64,000 nucleotides of DNA, taken from NCBI GenBank assembly GCA_018394295.1, contig CP074573.1, positions 2,301,156-2,365,155 on the forward strand, written 5' to 3'. Positions 962 through 50,177 of the stretch are shown in pieces. The position numbers were made by a program, and so were the translations under genes. How positions within the stretch are numbered: position 1 is the stretch's first letter; every line of letters starts with the position of its first letter. This DNA comes from Mycoplasmatota bacterium (GTDB lineage Bacteria; Bacillota_I; Bacilli_A; Haloplasmatales; Haloplasmataceae). The notes beneath the pieces are model-generated. The model was not told the origin of the DNA. It searched no databases and saw only the letters and a list, made by a program, of their open reading frames with translations.

Positions 962-6200
<5,239 letters not shown>

Positions 6201-17442: not shown

Positions 17443-17634
17443 ATTATATCCTCCTTCGAAGACTCACATCTTATTTTATTGTATCTTTCTCACATAAACA
17501 TTTACACTATACTATCATGTTATAAACATAATATATTCATATTATACTACAATTATGTTTTAAGTAAAATAATCTTGTTATTATTTTTCTTAATTGAAAC
17601 ATCAATCCTATCTGTTATTTAAGTCTATTACTTT
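17443..17634. other. AT-rich intergenic region upstream of htrA
   Basis: No gene is supported here. It presumably holds the htrA promoter and ends at the IS remnant that starts at 17635. Confidence 0.4.
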
Positions 17635-17807
17635 CGCTTAATGTTAAGGTAGTTGTCGCATATTTTTAATTGTTTTATAAGATTTTGTTTCTTCTCTTTC
17701 CAATATTGATGATTTTATTGAGTTTAACCAATGGGTAAACTGGACAATATATGAATGTTTTTAATATCGACTGCACATAAAAATAATCGGAATAATAATA
17801 CCATAAA

Positions 17808-18368
17808 TTATTTTTTACTGGGTATTGTGGGTATAAATTTTAATATTTGATTCTTTACAGATATAACATCAACTAATAAATCTACAATTGAATTTAGTTT
17901 ATAATCATGAGGTGATAAAATCATAACATGTTTATTAATATCTTGGCATTCGAAAGGAAGTGATAAAACATTTTTAAATGTAGAAACAACTTCTCCATTT
18001 CCTATACCAATAATAAATAACTTACTGGCAAAATGGTTATAATATTTTTCATCCTTCATCCAATAGCACTGACTTCTTTCATTAACTTTAAAGTATAATG
18101 ATGAAGGGTTACCACAATACATAGGTACTAACCAAATCAAATAATCAAATTCTTTGGTGATCTCAAATAAGGAAAATAAATCGTCCTTAATAAATGGACA
18201 TACATTTTCCATGCACTCATATTCACAACCACTACATTCATGAATGATTAAATCTCTAACATTAATAGTTGAAACATTTTCATTAGAATAATGGTCTCTT
18301 ATAAGATTCATTAACGAAGAACAATTTCCTTTATTTCTTCCACTAAATGATACTACTTGAACCTTCAT
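17808..18368 (-). CDS. Flavodoxin-like NAD(P)H:FMN oxidoreductase family protein
   Basis: The N-terminus VVSFSGRNKGNCSSLMNLI fits the phosphate-binding loop of FMN-dependent reductases (WrbA/iron-sulfur flavoprotein type). A Cys-rich stretch follows (HECSGCEYECMENVCPF), and LIWLVPMYCGNPSS matches the flavin-ring loop. The Cys cluster suggests a redox centre. I chose the ATG at 18368; GTG/TTG codons just upstream are alternatives. The gene lies between two ends of one IS family and points the same way as the missing transposase, so it may have arrived as cargo or filled a decayed element. Confidence 0.75.
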   Translation of the reverse strand: MKVQVVSFSGRNKGNCSSLMNLIRDHYSNENVSTINVRDLIIHECSGCEYECMENVCPFIKDDLFSLFEITKEFDYLIWLVPMYCGNPSSLYFKVNERSQCYWMKDEKYYNHFASKLFIIGIGNGEVVSTFKNVLSLPFECQDINKHVMILSPHDYKLNSIVDLLVDVISVKNQILKFIPTIPSKK

Positions 18369-18380
18369 TATAAGCACCAA

Positions 18381-18811
18381 CTTTCTTCACTATATTTATA
18401 CTCCCTAAAAAATATAAAATGTATCATACAATATTTCTTAGACATATTAATTATATCATATGATATTACATTTATTATATTTTTTTATTCAATAAATCCA
18501 TTCAATGTTCTATAACCACTCAAAAAATTCTAGCTAAATGTGACGACACGCTAACATTAGATAAATTTTGATCGAAGGATTTCTTTCTTTATTTAATTCA
18601 TCTATGCAGTTTTACATTTGTATAACCTCCCCGGTTTTACAGATGTAAAATACACTTTGTTTTAGGTCTATTGTGATACAGATCACCTTATAGCACTATA
18701 CTTATAATAAAAGACTAACTTATGGTATTATCCTTATTTTGATTAAATCTTAAATCATGACGACACACTACAACAGGTAAACCTGTAATATTTAGATGTG
18801 ATCTTAATGTA
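18381..18811. other. Non-coding stretch upstream of the flavodoxin gene with a dyad
   Basis: No convincing gene is seen. An interrupted dyad, TTTTACATTTGTA with TACAGATGTAAAA (12 of 13 paired, near 18610-18652), flanks a short GC-rich loop, CCTCCCCGG. It could be an operator or a folded leader. I find no residue of the IS transposase here. Confidence 0.4.
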
Positions 18812-18851
18812 GAAGCATTAATAATATATTCTTCTGCATTATTAATGCTTC
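18812..18851 (-). repeat. Perfect 14-bp hairpin adjoining the IS left end
   Basis: GAAGCATTAATAAT pairs perfectly with ATTATTAATGCTTC around 12 bases. In the related IS at 61.9 kb an unrelated perfect palindrome sits at the same place just inside the left end, so the structure rather than the sequence is kept. Confidence 0.7.
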
Positions 18852-18943
18852 ACTATACCTACTATACTATTCTTAGAGCTCCATGACATCTATTCTAACA
18901 GAAGGCTTTGCTATATAAGAAGAAATAAAAGAAAACATAAAAA

Positions 18944-20948: not shown

Positions 20949-22130
20949 ATGATTTATGTAGGTATTGATGTTGCTTCGAAAAAACATGATTGCTTTATTA
21001 CTGATCACAACGGAGTAGTTCCCTGTGATGTATTTACGATTACTAATGATATTGAGGGTTTTAAAAAACTCTCTAAAGTTATTAATGACTTTAAAGAGTT
21101 AGTTAATGATAATTATGTGCGTATAGGATTAGAGTCTACAGGGCATTATTCTAAGAACATACTGAATTATCTTTTTGACCAACAATTTGATGTTTACTTA
21201 TTTAATCCACTTTTAACCAGTATGGCTAAGAAAGCTTCATCTGTTCGTAAAACTAAAACAGATAAAACCGATGCAAAAGCCATCTGTAAATTTCTACAAG
21301 GAAATTGGAAAGACTTCCAACCCTATACAAGAAAATTATACCATGCCGAAGAACTAAAGTCATTAACACGTCACAGAATTAGATTAACTAAAGAGATTTC
21401 TCAAACTAAAATTCAATTATCTAATCTAATTGACTATGCTTTTCCAGAATATAAAACTGTATTTAGTAACTTATATATAAATTGTTCATTAGAATTATTA
21501 AAAACCTACTCTATTCCTTCTGTAATCAAAAACACACGTATAGATGCGTTATCTAATCTTCTTAAGCATTCTAAGGGCCATCACTATTTAACCACTGCGA
21601 AATTAATTAAACAATTAGCGAAAGAATCTATTGGCGATGATGCTTCATATTATGCTTTTGAAATCCGATTAATTGTTGAGAAAATTCAGTTTTTAAATTC
21701 ACAACTAGATCAATACGATAACTACATAAAAGAAATAATGGATAAACACTTTTCTATAATTCTTTCTATTCCTGGCGTTGGATATACAACAGGAGCAATA
21801 TTAATTGCCGGTATTGGCGATATTTCATTATTTTCTAGTGAAGATAAACTAGTTGCTTTTATTGGTGCTGAACCATCTATTTATCAATCTGGTGAATTTG
21901 AATCTAGTAATTCGAAAATGTCAAAACGAGGCTCAAAATACATGCGTTATGCAATACATCATGTATCTAATAGAATCATTCATTCAGATGAAAAATTCTC
22001 TAAATATTATCAAAAAAAGATTAATGAAGGTAAACACCATTTTGTTGCATTAAGCCATGTAGGAAAGAAAGTTATAAGAACCATATATTCTATATTGAAA
22101 TATAATACAGCTTATGTAACTAATCATTAA
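20949..22130 (+). CDS. IS110-family transposase (DEDD recombinase)
   Basis: A 393-residue recombinase of the IS110 type. The RuvC-like domain shows GIDVASKKHD, RIGLESTGHY and KTDKTDAKAI, giving the D-E-D-D residues. The C-terminal Tnp domain has SIPGVGYTTGAILIAGIGD and the serine region SSNSKMSKRGSKYMR. It appears intact. The GGGAGG site is somewhat far (about 11 bases) from the ATG. A roughly 230-base non-coding leader separates it from ku, and a terminator lies just downstream. Confidence 0.93.
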   Translation: MIYVGIDVASKKHDCFITDHNGVVPCDVFTITNDIEGFKKLSKVINDFKELVNDNYVRIGLESTGHYSKNILNYLFDQQFDVYLFNPLLTSMAKKASSVRKTKTDKTDAKAICKFLQGNWKDFQPYTRKLYHAEELKSLTRHRIRLTKEISQTKIQLSNLIDYAFPEYKTVFSNLYINCSLELLKTYSIPSVIKNTRIDALSNLLKHSKGHHYLTTAKLIKQLAKESIGDDASYYAFEIRLIVEKIQFLNSQLDQYDNYIKEIMDKHFSIILSIPGVGYTTGAILIAGIGDISLFSSEDKLVAFIGAEPSIYQSGEFESSNSKMSKRGSKYMRYAIHHVSNRIIHSDEKFSKYYQKKINEGKHHFVALSHVGKKVIRTIYSILKYNTAYVTNH

Positions 22131-35519: not shown

Positions 35520-35606
35520 GCCAGCGTGGCGGAATTGGTAGACGCAGTGGACTCAAAATCCACCGGAGTCAAATCCTTACGGGTTCGAGTCCCGTCGCTG
35601 GTACCA
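35520..35606 (+). tRNA. tRNA-Leu(CAA), prophage integration site
   Basis: A complete class II tRNA with long variable arm and encoded CCA. Acceptor stem GCCAGCG/CGCTGGT (G-U at the first pair), anticodon stem GTGGA/TCCAC with loop CTCAAAA, anticodon CAA. Its last 55 bases recur exactly at 50123-50177, so the gene remains whole after integration of the element. Confidence 0.97.
35552..35606 (+). repeat. attL: left copy of the 55-bp att repeat
   Basis: The 3' part of tRNA-Leu from the anticodon loop to CCA. It is identical to 50123-50177; the bases just outside differ on both sides. Confidence 0.93.
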
Positions 35607-35631
35607 TGATTTTAAGACTACCTCAACACAC

Positions 35632-35646
35632 GTCCGTTTAACGGAC
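35632..35646. repeat. Perfect 15-bp palindrome beside attL
   Basis: GTCCGTTTAACGGAC lies 26 bases inside the element from attL. No T-run follows. It could help fold the tRNA transcript end or bind the regulator or integrase. Confidence 0.45.
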
Positions 35647-35727
35647 ATCATAAGTAAATTATATACTATGATTTCTTATAAATCAACTATAATTTACAAA
35701 AAATTTAATTGAGGGAGGTATTTTTAA

Positions 35728-35934
35728 ATGAGACTAAAACAAATACGAAAAAAATTAAATTTAAAACAAGAAGATATTGCAAAAATTATTAATTTAAAAC
35801 GCAATAACATATCAAGAATAGAAAATGGAATACAAACATTAAATAATGAACAAATAGTTGAAATATGTAAAACATTAAAAATATCAGCAGATTATCTTTT
35901 AGGATTAGTTGATGAAAACACAGAAAATGAATAA
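35728..35934 (+). CDS. XRE-family helix-turn-helix regulator of the prophage
   Basis: A 68-residue Cro/CI-type protein consisting almost only of the HTH domain (LKQIRKKLNLKQEDIAKIIN ... NNISRIENGIQT) and ending ISADYLLGLVDENTENE. GGGAGG lies upstream. It is divergent in direction from the main gene block and sits beside attL, where lysogeny regulators are expected. Related sequence occurs at 50301 and as a broken fragment at 63.84 kb. Confidence 0.88.
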   Translation: MRLKQIRKKLNLKQEDIAKIINLKRNNISRIENGIQTLNNEQIVEICKTLKISADYLLGLVDENTENE

Positions 35935-35942
35935 CACAACTT

Positions 35943-35967
35943 AGAAAGTCATCACGAATGACTTTTT
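35943..35967 (+). terminator. Terminator after the HTH gene
   Basis: AAGTCAT and ATGACTT form a short stem followed by a long T-run. Confidence 0.75.
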
Positions 35968-35999
35968 TTTATTTACAAAAGAAAGGAGGATAATTAAAT

Positions 36000-36422
36000 A
36001 TGAAATTCAAAAAATTAACAACTAAAATTGATTTAAACGAATTAAGAAAATGTCAATTAAACTTAACTAAAATTTATAAACCTGATCTTTATTATTATTC
36101 ATATAAATACGAAACTACTATAGACAACATACTTAATATACGTAGTCATATTTTAAATGCTAATCAATTTAATTTAATATTACTAATAATCAATAATAAT
36201 GATCAAGATATATTTAATAAAGACATTAGCCTATTAACCTATGAACGCCCTTATCAATTAGAACATATAGAAAAAATAGATGAAGATATTTATTATTGCA
36301 ATATTTTTTTAGACGAGATAAACTATATAGAAAATAAACTTAATCCAGATCAAATAGAAATAATAAAAAGAACTGACATGAAAATAGATAAAGAAAACAC
36401 ATCAAAAGTTATTCCATGGTAA
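36000..36422 (+). CDS. Hypothetical prophage protein (140 aa)
   Basis: AAAGGAGGATAA precedes the ATG, and a strong terminator follows, so this is a real single-gene unit. The protein is hydrophilic, rich in Asn, Asp, Ile and Tyr, without signal or membrane segments. I recognise no family. Its position next to the regulator suggests an accessory or regulatory role rather than structure. Confidence 0.65.
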   Translation: MKFKKLTTKIDLNELRKCQLNLTKIYKPDLYYYSYKYETTIDNILNIRSHILNANQFNLILLIINNNDQDIFNKDISLLTYERPYQLEHIEKIDEDIYYCNIFLDEINYIENKLNPDQIEIIKRTDMKIDKENTSKVIPW

Positions 36423-36423
36423 A

Positions 36424-36457
36424 CTAAAGGTAGAGACTAAACTCTACCTTTTTTTTT
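36424..36457 (+). terminator. Terminator after the 36000 gene
   Basis: GGTAGAG and CTCTACC form a stem followed by at least eight T. Confidence 0.8.
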
Positions 36458-36514
36458 ATATTACTGTTAATAATTAAAATTACTAAAATAATCATTCTTA
36501 ATTTAATAAATTTT

Positions 36515-37864
36515 TTATTTCTTTATCATCAGGTAACTGACACTATATCCCCAAAAAACTTTTTTTATAATATGATTTATTTCATTATCATTAAATTTAC
36601 ATCTAGATAAAAACATAGCATAAGTCAAATACTCTAATATTTTAATATCAAATATTTGAAATTGATCAAATTGTGTATCATAATTTTCATGAACAATATC
36701 ATTTCTTATATCACATACTTTTTTAGCATAAGAAAATAAATCATCATAATCTAAATACTTATACTCTAAAGTACCCTCTATACATTTTTTATATTTTTGT
36801 AAACTATTTATAATTTTTTCAATAGTTTTAACTCTTTTACCAATATTTCCAATTACACTTTTAGCATCTAATAAACATTTCTTCTCATTTTCATTAAAAT
36901 AGTCACAATTGATTTCATTAATCTTATTTAATAAAATTTTTTTTATACCTTTCAAACTAGAATCTTTATGGTTTTTTGTATTATCATATATTTTATTGTA
37001 TTCACTTTCAAATGCAGAAAAAATTAAAAAATATCTTATGACGTCAATATCAAATAAGTCATCATATTTATTAGGCAAATGTTTTACATAAAAACATTTA
37101 TCATCTACAAGAGTTTGAAAGATATCAGAAATATGATTATTTGTTAGTAAAAAACTAGCATTATATGAAGAACTAGAAATTACATCATTACTTTCTATAT
37201 TTGCATACAAATATCCTATTTTATTTTTTTCATTATCATCAATTCCTTTTAAAATTATTTTATTAAAACTAACATTTTTTCTATATGACATCATTTGTAA
37301 AAATTTTAATACAATGTCAAAAATTTGAAATGATATATCTAAATTACTAATTTTATTTAATTGAAAATTTAAAATAGTATTTAGTTTTAAATCACTTCTT
37401 ATACCATCTTTCAAAATATTTCCAACACTTATACTTGATTTGATTCTAATATCTTCAAGATAAAAATTAAAATCCAAAATATCTATTGACTTATATAATA
37501 AATCTTGATTTTGTATACCTTTCCTTTTATTAAACCAAAAATAATCAATTGGACTAATGTAATCAGTTAAATAATTTGACTCAAAACTAATTTCTTTGAA
37601 ATTTTTAATACCATATGATCTAATATAGTATTTTAAAATAAATTCAATATCATTATTACAGTAGTGAGAATATTTTACATTAGCATAAATAATTTCTGAA
37701 GTTACTTCTTCGATAATTGTTATATTAAAATTATACTTAAAAATATACTGTCGCATATATTTTCTATCCGTTTCATTGTCTATACTTACGGTGATTCTAA
37801 ATTTATCAAATACAATATGTGATGTTATATTAAATTTATCTTCAAAATTAATTTTAGCTTTCAT
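36515..37864 (-). CDS. HEPN-domain protein resembling ApeA anti-phage proteins
   Basis: The 449-residue protein has a beta-rich N-terminal half of unknown fold and an alpha-helical C-terminal region. In the latter, CDIRNDIVHEN carries the R-N-x3-H motif of HEPN ribonucleases. The helix starting FLIFSAFESEY and the following long helices fit the ApeA family layout (N-terminal domain plus HEPN). ApeA members act in anti-phage defence, probably by RNA cleavage. It is the last gene of the minus-strand block, nearest attL, a usual place for cargo. The family call rests on motif and layout only. Confidence 0.6.
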   Translation of the reverse strand: MKAKINFEDKFNITSHIVFDKFRITVSIDNETDRKYMRQYIFKYNFNITIIEEVTSEIIYANVKYSHYCNNDIEFILKYYIRSYGIKNFKEISFESNYLTDYISPIDYFWFNKRKGIQNQDLLYKSIDILDFNFYLEDIRIKSSISVGNILKDGIRSDLKLNTILNFQLNKISNLDISFQIFDIVLKFLQMMSYRKNVSFNKIILKGIDDNEKNKIGYLYANIESNDVISSSSYNASFLLTNNHISDIFQTLVDDKCFYVKHLPNKYDDLFDIDVIRYFLIFSAFESEYNKIYDNTKNHKDSSLKGIKKILLNKINEINCDYFNENEKKCLLDAKSVIGNIGKRVKTIEKIINSLQKYKKCIEGTLEYKYLDYDDLFSYAKKVCDIRNDIVHENYDTQFDQFQIFDIKILEYLTYAMFLSRCKFNDNEINHIIKKVFWGYSVSYLMIKK

Positions 37865-37971
37865 ATTTCACCTCAATATAATATATTATTTATCAAAATT
37901 AACATTTTAAAAAATGAATAACTTTTCAGATTAACATAATTACAATTATAAGAAGATAACAAAATAGTTTC

Positions 37972-38118
37972 TTAATCTTGTTCAATTAAAGAATTATATA
38001 TCAATTCAATAAAATGTTCTGGTTTTAAAGGAACTATTGAATTATCAATTTTAGATTTTTCAACAACATCAAACCATTTTTCAATTGCATCTTGTATTAA
38101 GTCACATTTTTCACACAT
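37972..38118 (-). CDS. Small hypothetical prophage protein (48 aa)
   Basis: AAGGAGATAATTTT precedes an ATG encoding MCEKCDLIQDAIEKWFDVVE and ending LIYNSLIEQD. The N-terminal CEKC is a possible metal half-site. The gene is acidic and hydrophilic. Its excellent ribosome site supports it; function is unknown. Confidence 0.6.
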   Translation of the reverse strand: MCEKCDLIQDAIEKWFDVVEKSKIDNSIVPLKPEHFIELIYNSLIEQD

Positions 38119-38137
38119 AAAATTATCTCCTTAAGTT

Positions 38138-38755
38138 TTATTTATTATCTTCTTTTAATTTTAATAATAAATCAGTTTTCTTTAATATCATTGGAAATGA
38201 AGGTATCAAAAGAGAAACAATATAATCATCAAATAAATTTACATTTTTCATAATTGCAAATATTACCATATAACAAAAACATACAATATATAACATTGTA
38301 AATATTATATAATAAAAATAAGCACAATAATTTTTGTCATATTTTTCCTGATACTTTTCCTTAGTTTTTAAACAATAGAAATGAAAAGTAAATAAAATTA
38401 ACATTACATATAAATTAATTATATATAACTCTTGTATATATAATCTAAATATTCCATAAAAAATAACAAAGCATAGTACTGTAAGAAACAGCCTTAAGAT
38501 AATATGTTTTTGTATATTAGTAGTAATTTTTTTTGCACACATATAAATTAAGTTATACATTTTATTGTAATAATTAAGTATTAGAAGTGCTATATATAAA
38601 AATATTATAAGTAATAAAAGCGCAGTTAAATATTTTAAATCATCACCAACTAAATTATTGATATCTTTTACGAAAAACAACCAAAAAAAGAATAAGTATA
38701 TTATAGAATGCTTTGATAATATTTTGTTATACCATTTATTTTTATTCTTAAACAT
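38138..38755 (-). CDS. Multi-pass membrane protein of the prophage
   Basis: The protein is about 205 residues with about five hydrophobic segments, for example IIYLFFFWLFF, YLTALLLLIIFLYIALLIL, LTVLCFVIFYGIFRLYI, LYVMLILFTFHFYCL and YIIFTMLYIVCFCYMVIFAI. Its charged C-terminus ends LLLKLKEDNK. It lies between the integrase and the HEPN gene, so it may be a partner of the defence gene or a superinfection-exclusion protein. The start is the ATG at 38755 (a TTG five codons up is possible). No family is recognised. Confidence 0.6.
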   Translation of the reverse strand: MFKNKNKWYNKILSKHSIIYLFFFWLFFVKDINNLVGDDLKYLTALLLLIIFLYIALLILNYYNKMYNLIYMCAKKITTNIQKHIILRLFLTVLCFVIFYGIFRLYIQELYIINLYVMLILFTFHFYCLKTKEKYQEKYDKNYCAYFYYIIFTMLYIVCFCYMVIFAIMKNVNLFDDYIVSLLIPSFPMILKKTDLLLKLKEDNK

Positions 38756-38912
38756 AAACTCTTCCCCCAACCTACTTGAAATAATAATCGAAATACTATA
38801 ATTAATAATAATATATATTATAATTTTTAGATTAATTAAATTATAACACGAAAACTAGGCTTTTCACCTAGTTTTTTTTAACTAATATCAAATTATTTCA
38901 ACAAAAATTTTA

Positions 38913-39788
38913 TTATGAATATAAATTATGACTATGTTTCTCGTAATCATTTTTCAAATGCTTAAAAGACATATGAAGATATATTTCTGTAGTTTTTAAT
39001 GATGTATGTCCTAATAACTGTTGCAAAGATACCAATGAACCACCACTTTCAAGAAATAATGTCGCAAATGTATGACGTAACATATGAGGATGAAATTTTT
39101 CAATTTTACAATATTCTTTAATTCGATTAAATAAACTCCTAATATTATCATAATTATAATACTTATAAGTTCTATAATTCCATAATAAATATTTACGTTC
39201 AGGTAATAATGATATATATTTTATCATTAATTCTTTAGTTAAATGAGTAAAAAATACAATTCTTTCTTGTTTAGTTTTTGTCTTAGTTAATAAAATCATA
39301 TTATTATCAAAATCAATATTATTAATTTCAATATTTAATAATTCATTATTTCTTACTCCAGTATCCAATAATAAAAATATAATTAATTTTTCAGATAATT
39401 CTACTGGATTATCATCATTAAATCTTAACATAAAAGTAATAATTTTTCTTAAATCACTTTCTTTTACTAAATCAAATCGTTTTTTATCTTCTTTTAATTT
39501 TTCTAAATTAAATAAATAATCATTATTAATATTATTAAAATAAAATACTCTTTTTAATAGATTAATTTTTTTATTTAATGTAATATTTTTACAATTATTA
39601 TGATTCTTAAAATATAAAATCATTTGATTTATAGCCAAATCATCAATATCTTCAATTAATACAACTCCTTTCATCTTAAAATAATTCAACATCGGTTTTA
39701 AATGTTTACATTCATATTTATAAGTATTAATACTTTTTACTAATTCTGAATGTAATAAATAATTTGTTACTGCATTTTCTAATAACAT
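38913..39788 (-). CDS. int: Tyrosine recombinase (integrase)
   Basis: XerC/D-like, 291 residues. The N-terminal SAM-like DNA-binding domain (residues 1-95) is followed by the catalytic domain: Arg in LLDTGVRNNELL, Lys in LTKTKTKQERIV, HPHMLRHTFATLF (His and Arg), LGHTSLKTTEIYLHM (His and nucleophile Tyr). It should join attP to the tRNA-Leu attB. Unusually it is not adjacent to an att site but lies 3.3 kb inside, between rep and the membrane-protein gene. Confidence 0.92.
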   Translation of the reverse strand: MLLENAVTNYLLHSELVKSINTYKYECKHLKPMLNYFKMKGVVLIEDIDDLAINQMILYFKNHNNCKNITLNKKINLLKRVFYFNNINNDYLFNLEKLKEDKKRFDLVKESDLRKIITFMLRFNDDNPVELSEKLIIFLLLDTGVRNNELLNIEINNIDFDNNMILLTKTKTKQERIVFFTHLTKELMIKYISLLPERKYLLWNYRTYKYYNYDNIRSLFNRIKEYCKIEKFHPHMLRHTFATLFLESGGSLVSLQQLLGHTSLKTTEIYLHMSFKHLKNDYEKHSHNLYS

Positions 39789-39805
39789 ATACTTTCATCC
39801 TTTCA

Positions 39806-39832
39806 TAAAAATAAAAGGTAGTGCAAACTACC
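39806..39832 (-). terminator. Terminator after rep
   Basis: GGTAGT and ACTACC around a four-base loop, with TTTTATTTTT after it on the minus strand. It separates the replication genes from the integrase. Confidence 0.7.
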
Positions 39833-39889
39833 CTTCATAATTATAAAATACATTGTAGTCCATAATACTGCAGCTGCACAATGAACATC

Positions 39890-41257
39890 TTAGTTATTTT
39901 CATGTAAACTAAAAACTATTTTATCCGTTTGAGATTGATTAAAAACATTTTGATAAGTTGTATAATAAATTTCATTGTATTCTTCTGTAAAATCTTCATT
40001 TATTTTAACTTCAGGCTTAATTAAATTTTGAGAATTATAATATCTTTGTTTATTTAATCTATCTAAATACTCTGTTTCAGATAAATTTTTTATTGATTTC
40101 ATTAAATAACCTGCAAGATATGTAATAACTCTATCCTTATCCTTAATTTCTTCAATATCTGATTTTCCATATTTCCATATTTTAATACCTTTTCCATATC
40201 TTCTTTCATTTATTTCATAATCATAATCTAACCAAGACGGAATTTCATATAAAAACTCACTAGGTAATTCATTCATTAATAAATGAAAATGAATATTACC
40301 AATAGTTTGATATTCTGGAACACCTAAATAATATAAATCTAACCCCTTTTTTTTCATTTTCTTTTTCAAATTATCTTTAAAAGAAGTGAATTTTTTAATA
40401 CATTCTTCATAATCTTTAGGATCCTTTACATATATAAATTTTAAATTACAATCACTTGTATCACGAGTATCATTATAATGTAAATGTAAATCCTTTTGTT
40501 CATACTCAGCGAATGTTAGAGTAACAAACATTTTAAATTTATCTAAATTACAGCGAGCATAATCAATAATATATTCATAAGATCTACTACAAGAACGTCT
40601 AATTTTATCAACTGTTGGAGTCGGAATTGATTCATCTAATAATAAATATTTCAAAATTGTTTCGTCACTTAAATCTGTTTTATCTTCATTAAGTAATGAT
40701 TCATCATGATTAAATGCATATTCTAACAATCGTTTATATTTTCCATAATAACCTATTTTTATATTTTCACCTAAAACTACATTATTTTCAAAAACATCTT
40801 CTTTCAATGAAGTTAAGTCTTCTGATAATAAATCATATTTTTCATTATTAACTGCATAGTCATATAATCGATTATAACGTTCCTCAATATATTCTAAATA
40901 ATCATGATTATATAAACGATTATATAAACGATTGAAAAGAATATCATCTATATTTCTTATAAAATAACGTGCTTGTGAAGTTAATTGATTATACCAATTG
41001 ATTGTGCCAACTTCTAAAGTTTTAAATTCACGATATAATGTGTTATTGTCATATTGATATATTGGTTTATCATATTGAATTAATTCTACAAAATTATCAC
41101 CAAGCATACGTTTTTTAGATTTAATCTTTATTCTAAACATTTGAACAACAGCACTTTTATAATTTGACGTCCAAATCTCATTTTTAAAAAATTTAAAATG
41201 TTTAGGTAGATTTACAATATCTTTAGATGTAGTAGTTAAACTTTCATGAAGCAACAT
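39890..41257 (-). CDS. rep: Rolling-circle replication initiator (HUH endonuclease)
   Basis: The 455-residue protein has the three Rep motifs in order: motif I MFVTLTFAEYEQ, motif II GNIHFHLLMNELP (HxH metal site, the HUH signature) and motif III RVITYLAGYLMKSI with the nicking tyrosine(s). The motifs occupy the middle of the protein, about residues 225-400. Such enzymes nick the double-strand origin and start rolling-circle replication of filamentous phages and small plasmids. It lies directly after the methyltransferase gene. Confidence 0.85.
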   Translation of the reverse strand: MLLHESLTTTSKDIVNLPKHFKFFKNEIWTSNYKSAVVQMFRIKIKSKKRMLGDNFVELIQYDKPIYQYDNNTLYREFKTLEVGTINWYNQLTSQARYFIRNIDDILFNRLYNRLYNHDYLEYIEERYNRLYDYAVNNEKYDLLSEDLTSLKEDVFENNVVLGENIKIGYYGKYKRLLEYAFNHDESLLNEDKTDLSDETILKYLLLDESIPTPTVDKIRRSCSRSYEYIIDYARCNLDKFKMFVTLTFAEYEQKDLHLHYNDTRDTSDCNLKFIYVKDPKDYEECIKKFTSFKDNLKKKMKKKGLDLYYLGVPEYQTIGNIHFHLLMNELPSEFLYEIPSWLDYDYEINERRYGKGIKIWKYGKSDIEEIKDKDRVITYLAGYLMKSIKNLSETEYLDRLNKQRYYNSQNLIKPEVKINEDFTEEYNEIYYTTYQNVFNQSQTDKIVFSLHENN

Positions 41258-41380
41258 ACTTACACCTCTTTTTTATTCAAATTAATGCATTGATTTTTAT
41301 TTTAACGATAATATGTCCTTATTGACAAGTAATATAAAATACACTATAAAGTTTAATTTGTCAAGAATTATTTTTAAAAA

Positions 41381-42469
41381 CTATATAAATTCATACATAG
41401 ATAATTGATATGTAGATCGATCTATAAATAATTTATAAAATAATTTCTCTAAAACTGAAACCGGAATACTATTACCAGCTAATTTATATAATTGATCTCT
41501 TTTAAAACCATTTTTAACTAACACTTCATAATCTTTATCATCAAAACCTTGAAGTCTTAAACATTCTAAAGGTGTTAAGTACCTCAATCTATAATCATCA
41601 TCAACAACAGTTAAATTATTATTACATGTTATTGTTTGACAATATTGTTTACCAACTCGTCCACGTCTAGTTTTTGAATTACTATAAGCTAAATTAATAC
41701 AATCACCAGGATAAGCATAATCATATCCTTTTTTAGTTGCTTGATACACCTTTATAAGTCCTGGGTTATTCCAACGTTGCATTTTAGTTGTAATAGAATA
41801 ACAAAAATTATCTATAATTTTCACCTTACCAATTTCAACAGCTTTTAACATAGAAGGACAAATATTATAATAGTATTCATCAACATCAGTTTCTAAATAA
41901 TCAGATAACCTTTTTTCTAATTTCATTATTAATGGAAATTCATAAGGAAAATTAACATCATTTCTAATAGATACACAATAAACCCTTTTACGATTTTGAG
42001 GTAAATTATAATCTAAAGAATTTAAAACTTGATAATAAGATGTATATCCAAATTGAATTAATTTATTTAAATATTTACGAAAATTGTATAAGTTATTAGA
42101 TCTAATTGCTTGAGGTACATTTTCCCATATAATATATTTTGGTTTAACTTTTTCAATTATTTTAACAGAATACCACATTAAACTTGAACGAGTTCCTGTA
42201 TTTTCTTCTCCACCTTTATGTTTGCCAGCAATACTAAAATCCTGGCAAGGTGAACCATGAACAATTAAATCATAATAACCTAAATCTAAAATATTAACCT
42301 TTGTTATATCACCTAAATTTTTATCCCTTGATTCATTATGTATTAAAGAATATGCTTTGCTTGGAATAGGATCACATTCACAATAATTAACTAATTCAAA
42401 ATCTATATCTATATTACTTAAAGCTTTTTCAAAAGCACCAATACCACTAAATAAAGACAATACTTTCAT
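41381..42469 (-). CDS. C5-cytosine DNA methyltransferase
   Basis: All main motifs are present in 362 residues: I LFSGIGAFEKAL, IV GSPCQDFSIAGKH (catalytic PCQ), VI IWENVPQA, VIII-like LPQNRKRVYCVSI, then the target-recognition region and X LAGNSIPVSVLEKLF. No restriction endonuclease gene is adjacent, so it is an orphan enzyme that probably protects phage DNA from host restriction or marks replication. The recognition site cannot be read from sequence. Confidence 0.92.
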   Translation of the reverse strand: MKVLSLFSGIGAFEKALSNIDIDFELVNYCECDPIPSKAYSLIHNESRDKNLGDITKVNILDLGYYDLIVHGSPCQDFSIAGKHKGGEENTGTRSSLMWYSVKIIEKVKPKYIIWENVPQAIRSNNLYNFRKYLNKLIQFGYTSYYQVLNSLDYNLPQNRKRVYCVSIRNDVNFPYEFPLIMKLEKRLSDYLETDVDEYYYNICPSMLKAVEIGKVKIIDNFCYSITTKMQRWNNPGLIKVYQATKKGYDYAYPGDCINLAYSNSKTRRGRVGKQYCQTITCNNNLTVVDDDYRLRYLTPLECLRLQGFDDKDYEVLVKNGFKRDQLYKLAGNSIPVSVLEKLFYKLFIDRSTYQLSMYEFI

Positions 42470-42487
42470 GTTATACCACCTCTAATA

Positions 42488-42712
42488 CTACCAATTAAAA
42501 TTATTTTCTTCCCCTGTAATATTTTCATCTGCTTCATCTTCAATAATTACTTCTTTAGATTTATCAAAATCATTAACAGCATTCATTCGATATAAATCGT
42601 TTTGATCTCGTTCATGATTAATAAACTTGAATAACTTTCTTATAATTAATAAATATGTAATTAACATTGATATTGTAATACCAACTAAAAAATATATTAT
42701 TTCTCTTATAAT
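42488..42712 (-). CDS. Small single-pass membrane protein with ATT start
   Basis: AGGAGG lies exactly eight bases before an ATT codon. A stop codon directly precedes that ATT, and the first in-frame ATG is 15 codons later and has no ribosome site. The 74-residue product has one N-terminal membrane segment (EIIYFLVGITISMLITYLLI), a basic patch (RKLFKF) and an acidic tail ending EENNFNW. Its position just before the Zot-type gene suggests a virion or assembly protein. No family is recognised. Confidence 0.55.
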   Translation of the reverse strand: MIREIIYFLVGITISMLITYLLIIRKLFKFINHERDQNDLYRMNAVNDFDKSKEVIIEDEADENITGEENNFNW

Positions 42713-42807
42713 TTAAAACACCTCCTAGATTGTAAAACAATAACGTTATAATTATATTGTTTATTGATATATCGCTTAAAAGGGCTTAAAATCGCTTTAA
42801 ATCGATA

Positions 42808-44091
42808 TTACTTAAAATAGCTTTTGTTTACTCTATTAAACATTAATGCTTGTTGCAAATCTTCAAAATGTACATCAGAATGTTTTATTAATTCACTTTC
42901 AATATAAGAATACTCATGAGTATTGAAGCAGCCAAAACAATATGCTAACGGAATAACAAAAGTATAATCATCATAATAATGTCTAGAATTTGTGTTCTCT
43001 TTGCCTACATCTTCCTCTTTTTGATAAATATTACAATTAAATTCACAGTAGGATTTTGAGAAAAGGAACTTTTGTAAAAATGTTAATTTATATTCAAGTT
43101 TTCGACCGAATACTTTACCTTTTAATTTAACATTAATAAATTGTTCACGTTCATCAACATCAATAATACCTTTTAATAAAGCTAAAATCATAAATCGATA
43201 TCTATTAAAACTATCAACAAATGATAATATTTTATTAATAAAATAATTAATCTTTTTAAAATTTCCAATAACATTTACTTTATTTACAATCTCTATATTT
43301 GTTTGGTACAATCTTCTATGCCTAGCTATTTCATCACTTGAATCTTGTTTAGATGTAATCATATAATTTTTTTCTCTATGCATATTACCATATTTACGCT
43401 TATATTCTTTAGCACCTGATTCATCTTTCATATCTTCATATTGATTAGCTGCACCTAATTCATCTGTTGCTTCATCTTGTAACTCAACAAAATTATCATA
43501 AATAGCATAATTTTTATTCCTATACGCTTCTTTTATTTTAGTCCAATCTAAATCATATTCTAAATTCATTTTATTCGTAATATGACTATAAACACGAGTT
43601 TTAGAATAAACATATTGATCTCGAATATAAATAACATAATAAGCTTCAACATAATTTTTTATTAGTTGTTTAACAGATTCAAAATTTAAAAAATTATATT
43701 TTAAATAATCGCCAAACAAATTATATTTTAAAAGTAATTTATCAGTTATTAAATCTAAATCATTTATATTTTCACGATAATAACAATCTGAAATCACTTT
43801 TTCAAATTCATTAAAATCAATAAAATAAAATTCATTTCTTACCTCTTTCATAATTTCATTATTATTACCCATTATAATTATTTGAAATACATGACTTAAC
43901 CCAGACAACAAGCTTGATTTACCCATTCTAATTTTACCGCAAATACTAATTAAATAACCCAACCTATATTTACAATATCCAACGCTAAAATTAAATAAAT
44001 TTTCATAATATTTTCTATATCTAAATAAAACTAAAATAGGCAAAACCATTAAAATATCAAATAAAATCAAAAGCCAAAAAATTAATAACAT
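42808..44091 (-). CDS. Zot/pI-like membrane ATPase (phage assembly/extrusion)
   Basis: The N-terminus has one long or two short hydrophobic segments (LLIFWLLILFDILMVLPILV), then a P-loop in CGKIRMGKSSLLSG. The segment FVELQDEATDELG fits Walker B, and YMITSKQDSSDEIARHRRLY matches the conserved region after it in Zot proteins. Filamentous phage pI/Zot ATPases drive virion assembly through the membrane. I place the start at the ATG at 44091, well spaced from AAAGAGGTGAT, rather than nine codons upstream. FtsK/HerA-type transfer ATPase is the alternative. Confidence 0.75.
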   Translation of the reverse strand: MLLIFWLLILFDILMVLPILVLFRYRKYYENLFNFSVGYCKYRLGYLISICGKIRMGKSSLLSGLSHVFQIIIMGNNNEIMKEVRNEFYFIDFNEFEKVISDCYYRENINDLDLITDKLLLKYNLFGDYLKYNFLNFESVKQLIKNYVEAYYVIYIRDQYVYSKTRVYSHITNKMNLEYDLDWTKIKEAYRNKNYAIYDNFVELQDEATDELGAANQYEDMKDESGAKEYKRKYGNMHREKNYMITSKQDSSDEIARHRRLYQTNIEIVNKVNVIGNFKKINYFINKILSFVDSFNRYRFMILALLKGIIDVDEREQFINVKLKGKVFGRKLEYKLTFLQKFLFSKSYCEFNCNIYQKEEDVGKENTNSRHYYDDYTFVIPLAYCFGCFNTHEYSYIESELIKHSDVHFEDLQQALMFNRVNKSYFK

Positions 44092-44123
44092 TAATAAATC
44101 ACCTCTTTCATAGATCATATATA

Positions 44124-45833
44124 TTACATTTTTCTAAACTTCTTATAATGATTATGTTTCTTTGATGATGAACTTACTATATTAAGTGGTAACAACAAAA
44201 TAGAGAAAACAACCTTAATTAATAAAGATACAGATTTTAAAATAACAGGTAATAAAGTTAATACAGGTGATAATACAGATAATAAAATAAGTAAAACAAT
44301 AATAATAACAATAACATCTAAATTATCAATTATAAAATTAACTACTGGATGATTAACAATATTATTAATCTTATTTTCTGTATTAAGCATGGCTTTTTGT
44401 ACATCTGATAACTCTTTAGTTGTATCATCAGCCAACGGAACATCAATTACTTCATCCGATACATATGCTACACCTTTATATGAATACCAAAATTTTAAAA
44501 CTACATAATCTTTAATAAAATAATCACTAGGTCTAATCATAGAACTAACTGCTTCTTGTATCCAACTATCACGTTTATACCATAATTCTGTTTGATTCAT
44601 GTCACCAAGAAATATCTTCCAATCATAATTTTCTTTATCACTATGTTCAATAGCATTAACTTGTCCTTTCTTTCCGAAAAGCCCACTAGTATACCAATCT
44701 AATAAACCATGTGAAATATCATAAGTTTCATCAGATTTAATTATTCTTTCATGAGTTTTTTCTGAGCCTTGTATCCAATTAGCATTTTCAAACATATCAA
44801 AAGCCCCAAACGTATAGTAATCTGTATAAGATACTTTCATCATATATATATCATCCATTGGAACATCAGTGTTAAAATGTATATATATTTCATATTTATT
44901 TCTTTTTTCACATTCATCTGATGTTATAGTAACTACATTAACTTTCTCGTATTCTTCATCATTAAGATTCCAAATTAAAGTACTACCATCTTTCAATGAA
45001 AACTCTAAAATATAATAATTTTGATTATTATATTCAGACCTAACCCACTTAGCGTAATTTATATCTTCTTGTTCAATATCAGATGGTAAATTTAAATTAT
45101 TCCAAATATATACATTACTTATAGCGTAAAATTGCAAATCATAAGATGTATCTGTTTTAATGACATTTAATCTACCATAATTTTCATAATTATCTTTTAA
45201 AACATTATCCAATTCAGTCACATTATGAATAACAGTATCATCCGATTTCATATAGATTTCTACTACTGGAATAAACATAGCATTTATAATTTTTCTGTTT
45301 ATTATATCAGTTGCTTGATAATATTCAGGTATAATTTTAATATTATGAATTTCCTTATTAGGATTGATATTAATAAATAAAAAATCATTGTTAAATTCAT
45401 CTATAATTAATCGTTCAGTCTTTCCATCATAATGATATAATAAATCTTTAATTGGATAATATTCATCATAAATAGATTCAAACATAAATTGAATATTTAC
45501 ACTAGATACCTCATTTATATCTAAATTATTATCAACCAATAACTGATTTAAGTTAAATTCAATGTCCCACGATATAGTCTTAGGTAAAAAAACTTTTCTA
45601 ATAGTTTCACCAAAATCATAATGTAAATTCATTATTTTAGCACCTGATGGTAAAGTTAAATATTTAGAATATTCTTCGCAATCAGAATAACATTCCAATA
45701 TACCACCATACATATCTTTGTTTTCGTCATAAGTTAATGGTTGAGTAAAAGCATATGTTTTAAGGTCTTGAATAATCAAGACCTCAAATATTATGACTAC
45801 TAGTGAAATAAAATAAAATATCCTCTTTTTCAC
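44124..45833 (-). CDS. Exported prophage protein with hydrophobic C-terminal region
   Basis: A GTG start with GAGGTGAT gives MKKRIFYFISLVVIIFEVLII, a signal or anchor segment. About 450 mostly beta-type extracellular residues follow, with many Asp, Tyr and Asn. The C-terminus has two hydrophobic stretches (VIVIIIVLLILLSVLSPVL and LLIKVVFSILLLPLNIV) and a basic tail, KKHNHYKKFRKM. The layout (large ectodomain, then C-terminal membrane region) fits a pIII- or pVI-like virion tip protein or a receptor-binding protein. It lies between the Ig-repeat gene and the Zot-type gene. Confidence 0.65.
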   Translation of the reverse strand: MKKRIFYFISLVVIIFEVLIIQDLKTYAFTQPLTYDENKDMYGGILECYSDCEEYSKYLTLPSGAKIMNLHYDFGETIRKVFLPKTISWDIEFNLNQLLVDNNLDINEVSSVNIQFMFESIYDEYYPIKDLLYHYDGKTERLIIDEFNNDFLFININPNKEIHNIKIIPEYYQATDIINRKIINAMFIPVVEIYMKSDDTVIHNVTELDNVLKDNYENYGRLNVIKTDTSYDLQFYAISNVYIWNNLNLPSDIEQEDINYAKWVRSEYNNQNYYILEFSLKDGSTLIWNLNDEEYEKVNVVTITSDECEKRNKYEIYIHFNTDVPMDDIYMMKVSYTDYYTFGAFDMFENANWIQGSEKTHERIIKSDETYDISHGLLDWYTSGLFGKKGQVNAIEHSDKENYDWKIFLGDMNQTELWYKRDSWIQEAVSSMIRPSDYFIKDYVVLKFWYSYKGVAYVSDEVIDVPLADDTTKELSDVQKAMLNTENKINNIVNHPVVNFIIDNLDVIVIIIVLLILLSVLSPVLTLLPVILKSVSLLIKVVFSILLLPLNIVSSSSKKHNHYKKFRKM

Positions 45834-45848
45834 TATATCACCTCATTA

Positions 45849-47453
45849 TTAAAGTAAATTAACTATCCAATTCCAAATAGTTTTAAATAACCAACATATC
45901 CATTCCCAAACCGAAATATACCATGCTTTTTTTACTGGCTCTTCAGGTGTAATAGTAACTGTATCATCTGATTCATCCTCTATTACATTTACTACAGTGC
46001 TAATAGTATCTTCACTACCATCAACAGATGTAACTTTATACGTAACTGCATACATTCCAATAGTAGTTTCATTACCTAAATATTCGTTACTCAAAGTCAT
46101 TACAGATGTTGTTGCAACTACTTCTATCTGATTAGTTGCAGTTAACAAATCAATAATATCTTGATTAGTTAACGTTACAGATTGAGCAACAGTAATAAAA
46201 TAATTATCAGTAAAAAATACTGGTGGAATATCATCCATTACTTCAATAGTAACAGTATGAGTTTGAACATTATTTGATAAATCTTTAACTTCAAAAATAA
46301 CAGTATAAGTTCCTTTAATATGACCTCTACCAGTATAATTATCTGTTTTTATTGTAATTGAATCTGTTATATTACCATCTTTATTGTCATTAGCAGTTAA
46401 CTGACTTTGAATATCAGAAATAGTCAATGTTTCACTACTATTTTTAACAATATTAAGAGGTCCAGTAAAAGTCGGTTTTACATCATCAATAACTTCAATA
46501 GTTACATCATATGTATCATAATTTCCCGAAGTATCAAAACATTCATATGTAACTGTATAAGTACCAACTATATTATAATTAGCAGTATAATTATCTGTCT
46601 TTAATGTAATAGGCAAATCAGAATCATAATTATCGTCAACTGATAAAGCATTTAATACAGTTGTATTAACATCCAATAAAGTAGTCATAGATTGAGTATA
46701 ATTATATGTACCATATATTTCAGGAGAAACAGCGTCACGAACTAATACAGAACAGTCTAAAGTACTTGTATTACCTGATGAATCAGTAACAGAAAAAATT
46801 ATATGCCAATCACCAACAGTATTTTTATTAGCAGTATAATTATCTGTAACAACAGTAATATTAGAAGATATATCACCATCTTCATTATCAAATGCTGATA
46901 AACGTGATTGAATTTCATCTACTGACTTAGGTGAATCTACATTAGTAATAAAAGCAGTTTCACCATTAATAACTGGCTTAGAATCTGTTTTAGTAAAATA
47001 TAAAGTCCATACTTGATTAGTATCTATTTCTTGTACATTACTAAAACTTTGAGCATATATTAATAATTCTGTTTGTGACTCTTCCTCTACCATAATAGGA
47101 TAAGTACCTACATCATCATATGTACCTAATTTTACTTCTCTTAAAAATGTCTTTCCTTGAGCATCATAAACAAGAAAATATAAATCTTTCAAACCTACAA
47201 TATCAGGTTTTATTACATTAATATCACTATATAAACCAAATAAATCTTGCTTATCTCCTGAATATAATTCAATGCCATCAAGATAAGTCGCTCCACCCAT
47301 ATCTTGGTCATCACCTAATTGTAAATATACTCTATCATCTTGTTCTATCCAGTGAGTATAATCAAAATCTTCAGCATTAACATTGATATTTGTAATAAAA
47401 GCAAAACTCATAAATATTGTTAATACAACTAAATAAGAAATAAATTTTTTCAA
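45849..47453 (-). CDS. Secreted Ig-like (DUF5011-type) repeat protein, candidate adsorption protein
   Basis: A signal peptide (MKKFISYLVVLTIFMSFAF) leads to a 150-residue N-terminal domain and four Ig-like repeats of about 75 residues each. Three share the pattern DN.DG.I...I.V.TDNYT ... G.Y.V.FEV.D.SGN, ending V.D...P.F; the fourth is diverged. The protein ends in a Trp-rich amphipathic stretch (AWYISVWEWICWLFKTIWNW). In phages such repeats commonly contact cell-surface glycans. Start taken as TTG at 47453, six bases after AGGTG; GTG at 47462 is the alternative. Confidence 0.72.
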   Translation of the reverse strand: MKKFISYLVVLTIFMSFAFITNINVNAEDFDYTHWIEQDDRVYLQLGDDQDMGGATYLDGIELYSGDKQDLFGLYSDINVIKPDIVGLKDLYFLVYDAQGKTFLREVKLGTYDDVGTYPIMVEEESQTELLIYAQSFSNVQEIDTNQVWTLYFTKTDSKPVINGETAFITNVDSPKSVDEIQSRLSAFDNEDGDISSNITVVTDNYTANKNTVGDWHIIFSVTDSSGNTSTLDCSVLVRDAVSPEIYGTYNYTQSMTTLLDVNTTVLNALSVDDNYDSDLPITLKTDNYTANYNIVGTYTVTYECFDTSGNYDTYDVTIEVIDDVKPTFTGPLNIVKNSSETLTISDIQSQLTANDNKDGNITDSITIKTDNYTGRGHIKGTYTVIFEVKDLSNNVQTHTVTIEVMDDIPPVFFTDNYFITVAQSVTLTNQDIIDLLTATNQIEVVATTSVMTLSNEYLGNETTIGMYAVTYKVTSVDGSEDTISTVVNVIEDESDDTVTITPEEPVKKAWYISVWEWICWLFKTIWNWIVNLL

Positions 47454-47462
47454 TATGTTCAC

Positions 47463-48032
47463 CTAACCTTCTAAAATTTTACGTATATCTTCCAATTCCA
47501 TATCGTGAACATCAATAACATTTAATTCAGTTTTTAATGATTTCATAGCTTGTTTTTTAGCTTCAACATCATCAAGTCTATTCTTTTTATTATCAAAAAA
47601 TAATTCATAATAAACTACTTTTTGAAAATCTTTATTTGTTTTAATAAAATGTTTTAAGTATTTATAAACATCTTCATTTTGTGCTAAGTACTTAACTTTA
47701 TTTTTTTTATCATTAATAACTAATTCATGTTCACCAATATAATTACTTCTAAAAAAATCATTCAACATTTTTGATTTTAAGTTTAGATAATACTTTCTCT
47801 TTTTATCAAAATTATAAATATCATCATAACTAATTTTATGATCTACTTTTATTTGAGTATTTTTTAAATGATTTTTATCTTTTTGTTTATTGTTTTCTTT
47901 ACTGTTTTGTAATTGATCTAAACGAAATTGAGCATATCCTCTTTGACGATTAGTTAATTTATCATCATTTTTTCGTTTAGAATAATAATTAATTTTATCT
48001 GAATCTGAATAATAATTATTTCTAACATTCAA
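47463..48032 (-). CDS. Basic hypothetical prophage protein with shared QR-YA motif
   Basis: About 189 lysine-rich residues without signal or membrane segments. Near the N-terminus it has KRKNDDKLTNRQRGYAQFR, which is clearly related to RMNDDSLTDGQRKYAKNR in the next gene upstream. The central part is highly charged (KENNKQKDKNHLKN). A DNA-binding or packaging role is possible. Start probably TTG at 48032, after AGGTGA; GTG at 48041 is also open. Its stop precedes the next gene's site. Confidence 0.6.
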   Translation of the reverse strand: MNVRNNYYSDSDKINYYSKRKNDDKLTNRQRGYAQFRLDQLQNSKENNKQKDKNHLKNTQIKVDHKISYDDIYNFDKKRKYYLNLKSKMLNDFFRSNYIGEHELVINDKKNKVKYLAQNEDVYKYLKHFIKTNKDFQKVVYYELFFDNKKNRLDDVEAKKQAMKSLKTELNVIDVHDMELEDIRKILEG

Positions 48033-48051
48033 ATAAATCACCTACAATAAA

Positions 48052-48381
48052 TTAATACTTTTTACTTTTATAATCAGGATTTTTAAATTTAAAAGCTCTA
48101 GAAATATTTTTTAATGCTTGAAGATAACCACGAGAACGAGAACGTTCTGCTTTAGTGTACTTCTTATTAGTTTTTGGATTGATTGAGTCTTTCTTAGCTC
48201 TCTTTGTGTGAAATTGTCTCTTTTCTTCTAAAGAATATGGAGCATAATCATTTCCCTCTAATATTTGATTGTAACGATTTTTAGCATACTTTCTTTGTCC
48301 ATCTGTTAAACTATCATCATTCATTCTTTCACCAAAATGCAAAAGTTTCTCTTCTTTTGTATATTCAACTTCTTTAGACAT
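48052..48381 (-). CDS. Small basic prophage protein with tandem QR-YA motif
   Basis: About 109 residues, very basic. It has RMNDDSLTDGQRKYAKNRYN and a second diverged copy, RAKKDSIN...KKYTKAERSRSRGYLQAL. The first copy matches the neighbouring gene product. The pattern R.NDD.LT..QR.YA..R looks like a short helical DNA- or protein-binding unit. Start placed at ATG 48381 after AGAAGAG; the frame is open to 48426. No known family recognised. Confidence 0.58.
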   Translation of the reverse strand: MSKEVEYTKEEKLLHFGERMNDDSLTDGQRKYAKNRYNQILEGNDYAPYSLEEKRQFHTKRAKKDSINPKTNKKYTKAERSRSRGYLQALKNISRAFKFKNPDYKSKKY

Positions 48382-48483
48382 ATTTTTCATCTCTTCTTTC
48401 TTTTTATTATTTATTTTTTTTATCAAATTTTTTTTAAAAAAATACTAACCAAAAAGAATTAAGGTTAGTATTCGTAATACTAA

Positions 48484-48639
48484 TTATTTAATTTGATTGA
48501 AAGTACCACATTTTTCACATTTAACAGATATTTCACCATGTGAAATAATTAAATCATTAGACTTTGCAATCATGTTATTACATTCACTACAATGATATAA
48601 TTTACATTCCTTAGCTTTAATATTTTTACCAGCTGCCAA
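48484..48639 (-). CDS. Com-like zinc-ribbon protein (51 aa)
   Basis: A TTG start after AAAGGTGATGA gives a protein with two CxxC pairs, HCSECNNMI and KCEKCGTFN, about 25 residues apart. This is a zinc ribbon like phage Mu Com, a translational regulator that binds mRNA. The start overlaps the end of the upstream gene by 14 bases, so the two are probably coupled. It was too short to be listed by most gene finders. Confidence 0.65.
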   Translation of the reverse strand: MAAGKNIKAKECKLYHCSECNNMIAKSNDLIISHGEISVKCEKCGTFNQIK

Positions 48640-49180
48640 TATCATCACCTTTTTCATCAACTTCTGAATCTTTAGTAACTGTAATAAATTTAATATCCTT
48701 GTTTTCTTTAGATACTAATATCGCTTCTGATTTACTAAAGTAATTAGTAAATATTTCATTTTCAGTTAAGAAAACATTATACTTTTTATAATTGATATTT
48801 TCTAGATCATTAATTACATGATAAGTTCTTACTGGTACATCATTAATGTATATTGTTTCAATATCTTTAAATTCTTCTTTTTTCATTTTATACTTCGTTG
48901 ATTTTAATTCATCTATTACATTGTAATATCTAGCAACATCATTTATTTTAATCCGACCATGAACATGACCACTAAATCTAACAAATAAATTATATGATGT
49001 TTGATTATATTTTTTATTAAATTTTTTAACTATTTTAACTTGAAATTTCTGTAATTTAGATATTTCTTCTTTAGTCATATCTCTAGAAAACTTTAATACA
49101 GATTCAGAAACATTATTTTTTACACCTTGTTTATTTTTGTTTTCACTTGCATTTACTTCATTATTAGTAGCTGTTGCCAC
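48626..49180 (-). CDS. Hypothetical prophage protein (184 aa)
   Basis: A GTG start directly follows AAGGAGTGATTTAA. The N-terminal 30 residues are disordered and Asn/Lys-rich; the rest is a compact alpha/beta sequence with VRFSGHVHGRIKINDVARYY and an acidic C-terminus (VDEKGDDIGSW). Basic core plus acidic tail is the usual plan of single-stranded-DNA-binding proteins, which filamentous phages need, but no specific homology is recognised. Confidence 0.6.
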   Translation of the reverse strand: MATATNNEVNASENKNKQGVKNNVSESVLKFSRDMTKEEISKLQKFQVKIVKKFNKKYNQTSYNLFVRFSGHVHGRIKINDVARYYNVIDELKSTKYKMKKEEFKDIETIYINDVPVRTYHVINDLENINYKKYNVFLTENEIFTNYFSKSEAILVSKENKDIKFITVTKDSEVDEKGDDIGSW

Positions 49181-49208
49181 TTAAATCACTCCTTCTATCG
49201 TATAGATT

Positions 49209-49394
49209 TTACGTAAATTTACGTTTATTTTTCATTTGATCACTTAAATAAATTAAATCTTTTAGTTCTACTAACTCAATACTTGTTAATCCTGTCTTAA
49301 TTGCACCAAATATAATATCTTTATTACTTGAATCAATAGAAATATACTTTGATAACTCGTTAATAATTAATTGACTTTTTTCAATCTTATTCAT
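49209..49394 (-). CDS. Small hypothetical prophage protein (61 aa)
   Basis: MNKIEKSQLIINELSKYISI ... DQMKNKRKFT, predicted mainly alpha-helical, without membrane segments. AAGGAAGAGG lies just upstream of the ATG. It is part of the dense run of small early genes. Function is unknown. Confidence 0.55.
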   Translation of the reverse strand: MNKIEKSQLIINELSKYISIDSSNKDIIFGAIKTGLTSIELVELKDLIYLSDQMKNKRKFT

Positions 49395-49409
49395 GCTTAT
49401 CCTCTTCCT

Positions 49410-49526
49410 TTAACGAGATAAAACATATTTTTGATACATACAATATATTTGTTTATCTGAATAACAGACCCATTTATACAATCTACCTTTCTTTTCTAAC
49501 TTAGCAATCATATTACTTCTAGTCAT
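49410..49526 (-). CDS. Small basic prophage protein (38 aa)
   Basis: AAAGGAGTTATAAAT precedes an ATG encoding MTRSNMIAKLEKKGRLYKWV and ending YVLSR. The ribosome site is as good as any in the element. The start MTRSNMIAKLEKKG resembles the beginning of a helix-turn-helix, so a small regulator is possible. Confidence 0.55.
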   Translation of the reverse strand: MTRSNMIAKLEKKGRLYKWVCYSDKQIYCMYQKYVLSR

Positions 49527-49628
49527 ATTTATAACTCCTTTCATTAAATTTAAAGGTATGATTATAAAAACAATTATTATGGTGGTTTACACCAAATCAT
49601 CCTACCAACTCCCTTAAATAAATATTAA

Positions 49629-49868
49629 TTACCAAATATTTAAATCACTTTCTACATCACAATGTACACAAAGTAATACTTGTAATTCTAAAAATCTTTT
49701 TTCAACTTCTTCTTTTGACTCAGACACTTCTGTTACAACATAAATATCATCTTCTTTTTTAGTTGGATGATGTAATCTAGAAAATCTCAAAACAATACAT
49801 TCATCTTCAATATCAATAGAAGAAATCACTTGAACATTAATTAATTGATTATTAAATTTAATAAACAT
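49629..49868 (-). CDS. Small hypothetical prophage protein (79 aa)
   Basis: MFIKFNNQLINVQVISSIDI ... ends CDVESDLNIW. It is beta-rich at the N-terminus, then charged helix, soluble. GGGGGGTG lies upstream of the ATG. No family recognised. Confidence 0.55.
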   Translation of the reverse strand: MFIKFNNQLINVQVISSIDIEDECIVLRFSRLHHPTKKEDDIYVVTEVSESKEEVEKRFLELQVLLCVHCDVESDLNIW

Positions 49869-49904
49869 ATTTTCACCCCCCTTTTGTTTTTTTTCAAAAT
49901 CTAA

Positions 49905-50015: not shown

Positions 50016-50046
50016 TTCGTAAACAACTCCTTTAAATTTTAAATAA

Positions 50047-50122: not shown

Positions 50123-50177
50123 CTCAAAATCCACCGGAGTCAAATCCTTACGGGTTCGAGTCCCGTCGCTGGTACCA
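50123..50177 (+). repeat. attR: right copy of the 55-bp att repeat
   Basis: Exact copy of tRNA-Leu positions 35552-35606. Only the 3' part of the tRNA is present, so this is not a functional tRNA gene. Confidence 0.93.

Follow-up and report, generated by a model that had tools for sequence, protein, structure and literature searches.

An intact flavodoxin-like gene between the paired ends of a decayed insertion sequence in a member of the Haloplasmataceae

How does a redox gene come to lie between the two ends of one insertion sequence (IS), in the place of a transposase? The question is raised by a short segment (17635-18905) of the window analyzed here, a stretch of 64,000 nucleotides from contig CP074573.1 (positions 2,301,156 to 2,365,155, forward strand; assembly GCA_018394295.1) of a Mycoplasmatota bacterium in the family Haloplasmataceae. 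An initial annotation proposed that this segment could be a non-autonomous, cargo-carrying derivative that is mobilized in trans. We have examined its borders, its interior, the same locus in relatives and the possibility of further copies.

Paired ends, a target duplication and the parent IS

The two ends of the IS at 61919-63641 both recur at the borders of segment 17635-18905; their relative orientation is correct, and the pair as a whole is inverted. The left end (18852-18905, minus strand, beginning CCTTCTGTTAGAATAGATGTCATGGAGCTC) matches over 49 bp at 92% identity (E ~1e-13) and has a 2-bp deletion close to its tip; the right end (17635-17731, minus strand; IS 1626-1723) matches over 98 bp at 91% (E ~1e-32). 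At these E-values, the similarity to the IS is not due to chance. The initial annotation had described the ends correctly: both are present in consistent orientation, about 1.27 kb apart, and the right end retains the last transposase codons, although frame and stop codon are lost. It had also suggested looking for a target duplication at the outer borders, and one is present. CTTT occupies 17631-17634 and again 18906-18909, exactly at both tips of the unit (AAAG in the orientation of the IS), and a 4-bp border match has a chance probability of ~0.01 at the local composition. Because this repeat sits precisely where six full copies of the IS have 4-bp duplications, it can be taken as essentially established that transposition brought in the two ends together and left a duplication of 4 bp.

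The copy that served as reference for the ends (61919-63641, plus strand) is a full-length element of 1723 bp with orfA and orfB. Its transposase is of the IS3 type: orfB scores 179.8 bits against NF033516 (cut-off 160), with HTH_Tnp_1 in orfA and rve in orfB. The genome has five further full copies, which share 99-100% identity with it; the duplications of the six, 4 bp each, are CCAT (the reference), ATGT, ATAA, AATA, AAAT and ATGA. All six start with CCCTCTGTGTTAG and end with GACATTAAGCG; the CCCTCTG start and the TTAAGCG end lie directly inside the duplications in 6/6 copies and are not of the form TG...CA. Termini in the IS3 family are 5'-TG...CA-3'. Despite its IS3-type transposase, the parent element has CCC...GCG tips bordered by duplications of 4 bp, and a hairpin of variable sequence follows its left end.

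In one full copy, orfA spans nt 99-617 and orfB begins at nt 578, one frame back; the copies differ from one another by homopolymer indels. In every one of the six, orfA or orfB has lost a single base from at least one homopolymer, and no copy is intact as assembled. These losses may be real decay, or they may be long-read or assembly error. The genome holds seven left ends (the six full copies and the 17635-18905 unit) and nine right ends, which include a 618-bp 3' stump and a scrap at position 296015 of contig C1. Truncation decay of this IS, as in the stump and the scrap, is common in the genome. At the latter site (3380-3540 of the extracted locus), a diverged right end and transposase tail run into the 3' end of an unrelated gene (427 aa), with a shared 7-mer, GTCTATG, at the junction. 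This junction suggests that joins of the illegitimate or end-joining type happen in this genome.

Interior: an intact gene, non-coding DNA and transposase scraps

Inward from the left end, the unit consists of a hairpin, ~440 bp of unrelated non-coding DNA, the flavodoxin-like gene and two transposase scraps. The gene (17808-18380, minus strand) is intact and belongs to the NADPH-dependent FMN reductase family (PF03358, FMN_red; E = 9e-7). Its product has 187 aa if translation starts at the ATG at 18371, or 190 aa from the TTG at 18380, and carries a CxxCxxxCxxxxC motif. Likeness to known proteins consists of this family match and of a profile match to PDB 7d38 (Cd1), the nearest solved chain, over its first 99 positions; AlphaFold prediction without an alignment gave a mean pLDDT of 34. 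Unlike FMN_red and 7d38, the protein falls into a small Cys-rich subgroup of its own (CxxCxxxC, then DD), formed with five homologues from the same class, in which Cys45, Cys48, Cys52 and an Asp-Asp pair are invariant. The homologues within the class are 27-35% identical. The gene, an open frame, probably gives rise to an ordinary redox protein.

As the initial annotation noted, this gene stands where a transposase would be expected. The transposase is reduced to out-of-frame scraps of 57 and 98 bp: an internal fragment (17732-17788, minus strand; IS 1336-1392; 57 bp at 84%) and the codons at the right end. Between them, 233 bp of the IS are deleted, and the two lie in different frames. The internal fragment covers the region of the catalytic glutamate, which is here a glutamine; its translation is DYFYVQSILKTFIYCPVYP, compared with DNPYAESIFKTFKYCPGYP in the IS. 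By manual count, 12 of 14 substitutions in ~111 coding bases are non-synonymous, the catalytic E-to-Q change being one of them. Given the different frames, the missing stop codon and this mostly non-synonymous change, which includes the catalytic residue, the scraps carry the sequence signature of pseudogene decay. Partial deletion and death of the transposase in this unit are practically certain.

The hairpin (18812-18851, minus strand, 14-nt perfect arms) adjoins the left end on its inner side and shares its offset with hairpins in intact copies of the IS, both in this genome (IS nt 60-91) and in a relative (G006). Because the offset matches and the hairpin sequence differs, the resident IS and the source of the unit's left end are probably sister subtypes.

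The DNA upstream of the gene (18381-18811) is not IS-derived; it contains a number of short palindromes, and a TGTGTCGTCA motif recurs in it. Neither the ~440-bp region nor the motif has a second copy in the genome beyond one weak 50-bp match, which argues against either being another repeated element. Local alignment with shuffled controls detected no leftover IS sequence between the left end and the gene, tblastn detected no orfA between the ends, and Rfam gave only a sub-threshold match for 18381-18811. A 12-nt inverted match around the gene (17795-17816 and 18710-18731) was set aside, as it is estimated to lie within the chance level of AT-rich DNA and has no outer duplication.

The locus in relatives and the search for a second copy

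The unit lies between genes for an NHEJ ligase and HtrA. In two family-level relatives (G003 and G004), Ku, the NHEJ ligase and HtrA are neighbors, and the gap between ligase and HtrA is ~80-90 bp (<100), with neither IS nor flavodoxin-like gene. The initial annotation had named presence of the gene at this locus in relatives without the IS ends as the observation that would speak against it; G003 and G004 have neither. Because both lack the gene at this locus, it is an addition in the present lineage. In the congener (G001), the assembly is broken within the ligase-htrA interval, and the remaining 322 and 418 bp contain neither the IS nor the gene. Homologues of the cargo gene in G001, G004, G005, G006 and G013 are found at other loci and without these IS ends.

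The window holds other features of note. Adjoining ku, a 393-aa ORF (20949-22130) resembles an IS110-type transposase. At 35520-50177, a tRNA-Leu(CAA) has its 3' part repeated over 60 bp (97%) at a distance of 14.6 kb; between the two are a phage-type integrase, a G2P-like replication protein and a C-5 cytosine methylase, and the region is a probable integrated mobile element. At 57304-57386, two 41-nt arms (88%) separated by a single nucleotide form an inverted repeat.

The initial annotation had called for a search for further loci at which these ends enclose this gene; that search found none in the bacterium's own genome, seven relatives, the GTDB species genomes, plasmids and phages. No other pair of ends enclosing the gene was found in the own genome. 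No close relative of the protein was found in 84,980 species genomes (GTDB; reach, exact 8-residue words), or in plasmids and phages. The left-end motif itself occurs in a Haloplasma MAG, two Desulforamulus species and one Bacillota MAG. The three non-Haloplasma records run into the start of a transposase, and five copies in the Haloplasma MAG are interrupted by contig ends.

One locus in that genus offers a lead. On contig C5 of G001 (Haloplasma MAG B5_bin.1; minus strand, ~5050-5590), a gene for a 153-aa P-loop kinase begins ~75 bp after an IS left end, which also lacks 2 bp near its tip; this is roughly the distance of the orfA start from the left end in intact copies. No right end was found behind the kinase gene, and a 59% homologue in G004 is located at a contig end. 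For these two reasons we treat the case as a lead only. The YCII locus in the own genome was considered as an empty kinase site and discarded, as it is not syntenic. It seems unlikely that this IS lineage repeatedly swaps its transposase for unrelated genes, such as the flavodoxin-like gene and the kinase gene, to form cassettes mobilized in trans.

Capture in place or movement as a cassette

The reading we favor, at a probability of about 0.55, is capture in place, by which an old IS copy would have shed its interior and acquired foreign DNA that included the gene; the ends would be passive relics in a structure like that of a mobile insertion cassette (MIC), one that formed here and did not move as a unit. 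First, a relative of the resident IS would have inserted by transposition into the narrow NHEJ ligase-htrA interval and produced the CTTT duplication, a step well supported by the anatomy. The transposase would then have been destroyed by deletion, and ~1.0 kb of foreign DNA, comprising the flavodoxin-like gene and its own upstream region, would have replaced most of the 1.2-kb interior. This exchange after insertion could have proceeded by illegitimate or end-joining recombination, for example during end-joining repair. Capture in place agrees with paired ends inside a 4-bp duplication, decayed scraps, a unit in single copy and the frequent truncation of the IS, as well as with the empty ligase-htrA gap in G003 and G004 and with cargo homologues elsewhere that lack IS ends. 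It requires that capture occurred exactly between the ends of one of ~nine copies, which counts against it, as does the lower divergence of the termini. Relative to the live IS, the termini differ at 3/66 positions and the inner scraps at 20/138 (p = 0.036), a contrast that becomes 4/71 versus 14/111 (p = 0.20) when the regions are split otherwise. The ends could thus have been under selection after the death of the transposase, as in a mobilized cassette.

Alternatively, the gene may have been captured between IS ends at another site; a related IS would then have supplied the transposase in trans to insert the unit, itself transposase-free, at the present locus, with formation of the CTTT duplication. 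We consider such a true mobile insertion cassette possible, if less probable. Both ends in correct orientation, the duplication, an intact gene without a transposase and the lack of the gene at this locus in relatives are all as expected of one; the related IS is multi-copy, with six full copies at 99-100% identity, and the perhaps better kept termini are a weak point in its favor. Indeed, a cassette explains everything equally well save the missing second copy, the 2-bp deletion at the left tip and the irregular state of the right side, where leftover scraps and a 233-bp deletion look more like decay than like a clean cassette. There is one copy of the unit, with no further locus of ends and gene in any searched collection, and the homopolymer losses in 6/6 full copies leave no evident working transposase as assembled. 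The proposal of a cargo-carrying derivative thus holds for the cassette anatomy, the target duplication and the empty sites in G003 and G004, but no second locus supports it, and the putative movement of the unit is not the simplest reading. An accidental flanking of the gene by two unrelated degenerate IS fragments would suit the shortness and divergence of each, and truncated copies do occur elsewhere in the genome, but the correct orientation and the duplication at both exact tips (the latter alone at ~0.01 by chance) make it very improbable. Hardly credible is a gene native to the locus, with an IS inserted around or beside it. Its protein family is present in other genomes of the class, but those homologues, at 27-35% identity, sit at other loci, the ligase-HtrA gap in G003 and G004 is geneless, and one IS insertion cannot put its two ends around an existing gene.

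How the unit relates to known elements follows the same lines. It is like degenerate, internally deleted IS copies in its partial ends, its deleted and frameshifted transposase, its single copy and its divergence from live copies, and differs from them in that foreign DNA, an intact gene included, stands in place of the missing interior. Transporter IS (tIS) retain their transposase. These IS derivatives with passenger genes (PMC9330008) share with the unit a passenger between IS ends, whereas the unit has lost its transposase. MICs have been described as MIC231A1 and MIC231D in Bacillus cereus and as mic-qnrD (PMC3913671, a source that also cites mobilization of MIC231A1 in trans by the IS231A transposase). 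Like the unit, they have inverted ends of IS type and a passenger where the transposase would be, and a target duplication marks their borders. Unlike MIC231A1, the unit is single copy, transposase scraps remain, and its parent is of IS3 type rather than IS231 type. It has the ends, a 4-bp duplication of the parent's length, no transposase gene and an intact passenger, but no second locus was found to which ends and passenger had moved as a unit. We do not class it among established MICs: its structure agrees with theirs, but the second locus that would speak for mobility did not turn up.

Were the unit a working cassette, the IS known to have transposase-free, gene-carrying derivatives would come to include one whose transposase is of IS3 type, and gene capture would be shown for Haloplasma, a wall-less lineage that has been little studied. 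In its present state, it clearly exemplifies an intact foreign gene retained within a decayed IS copy, and it illustrates how such cassettes may begin.
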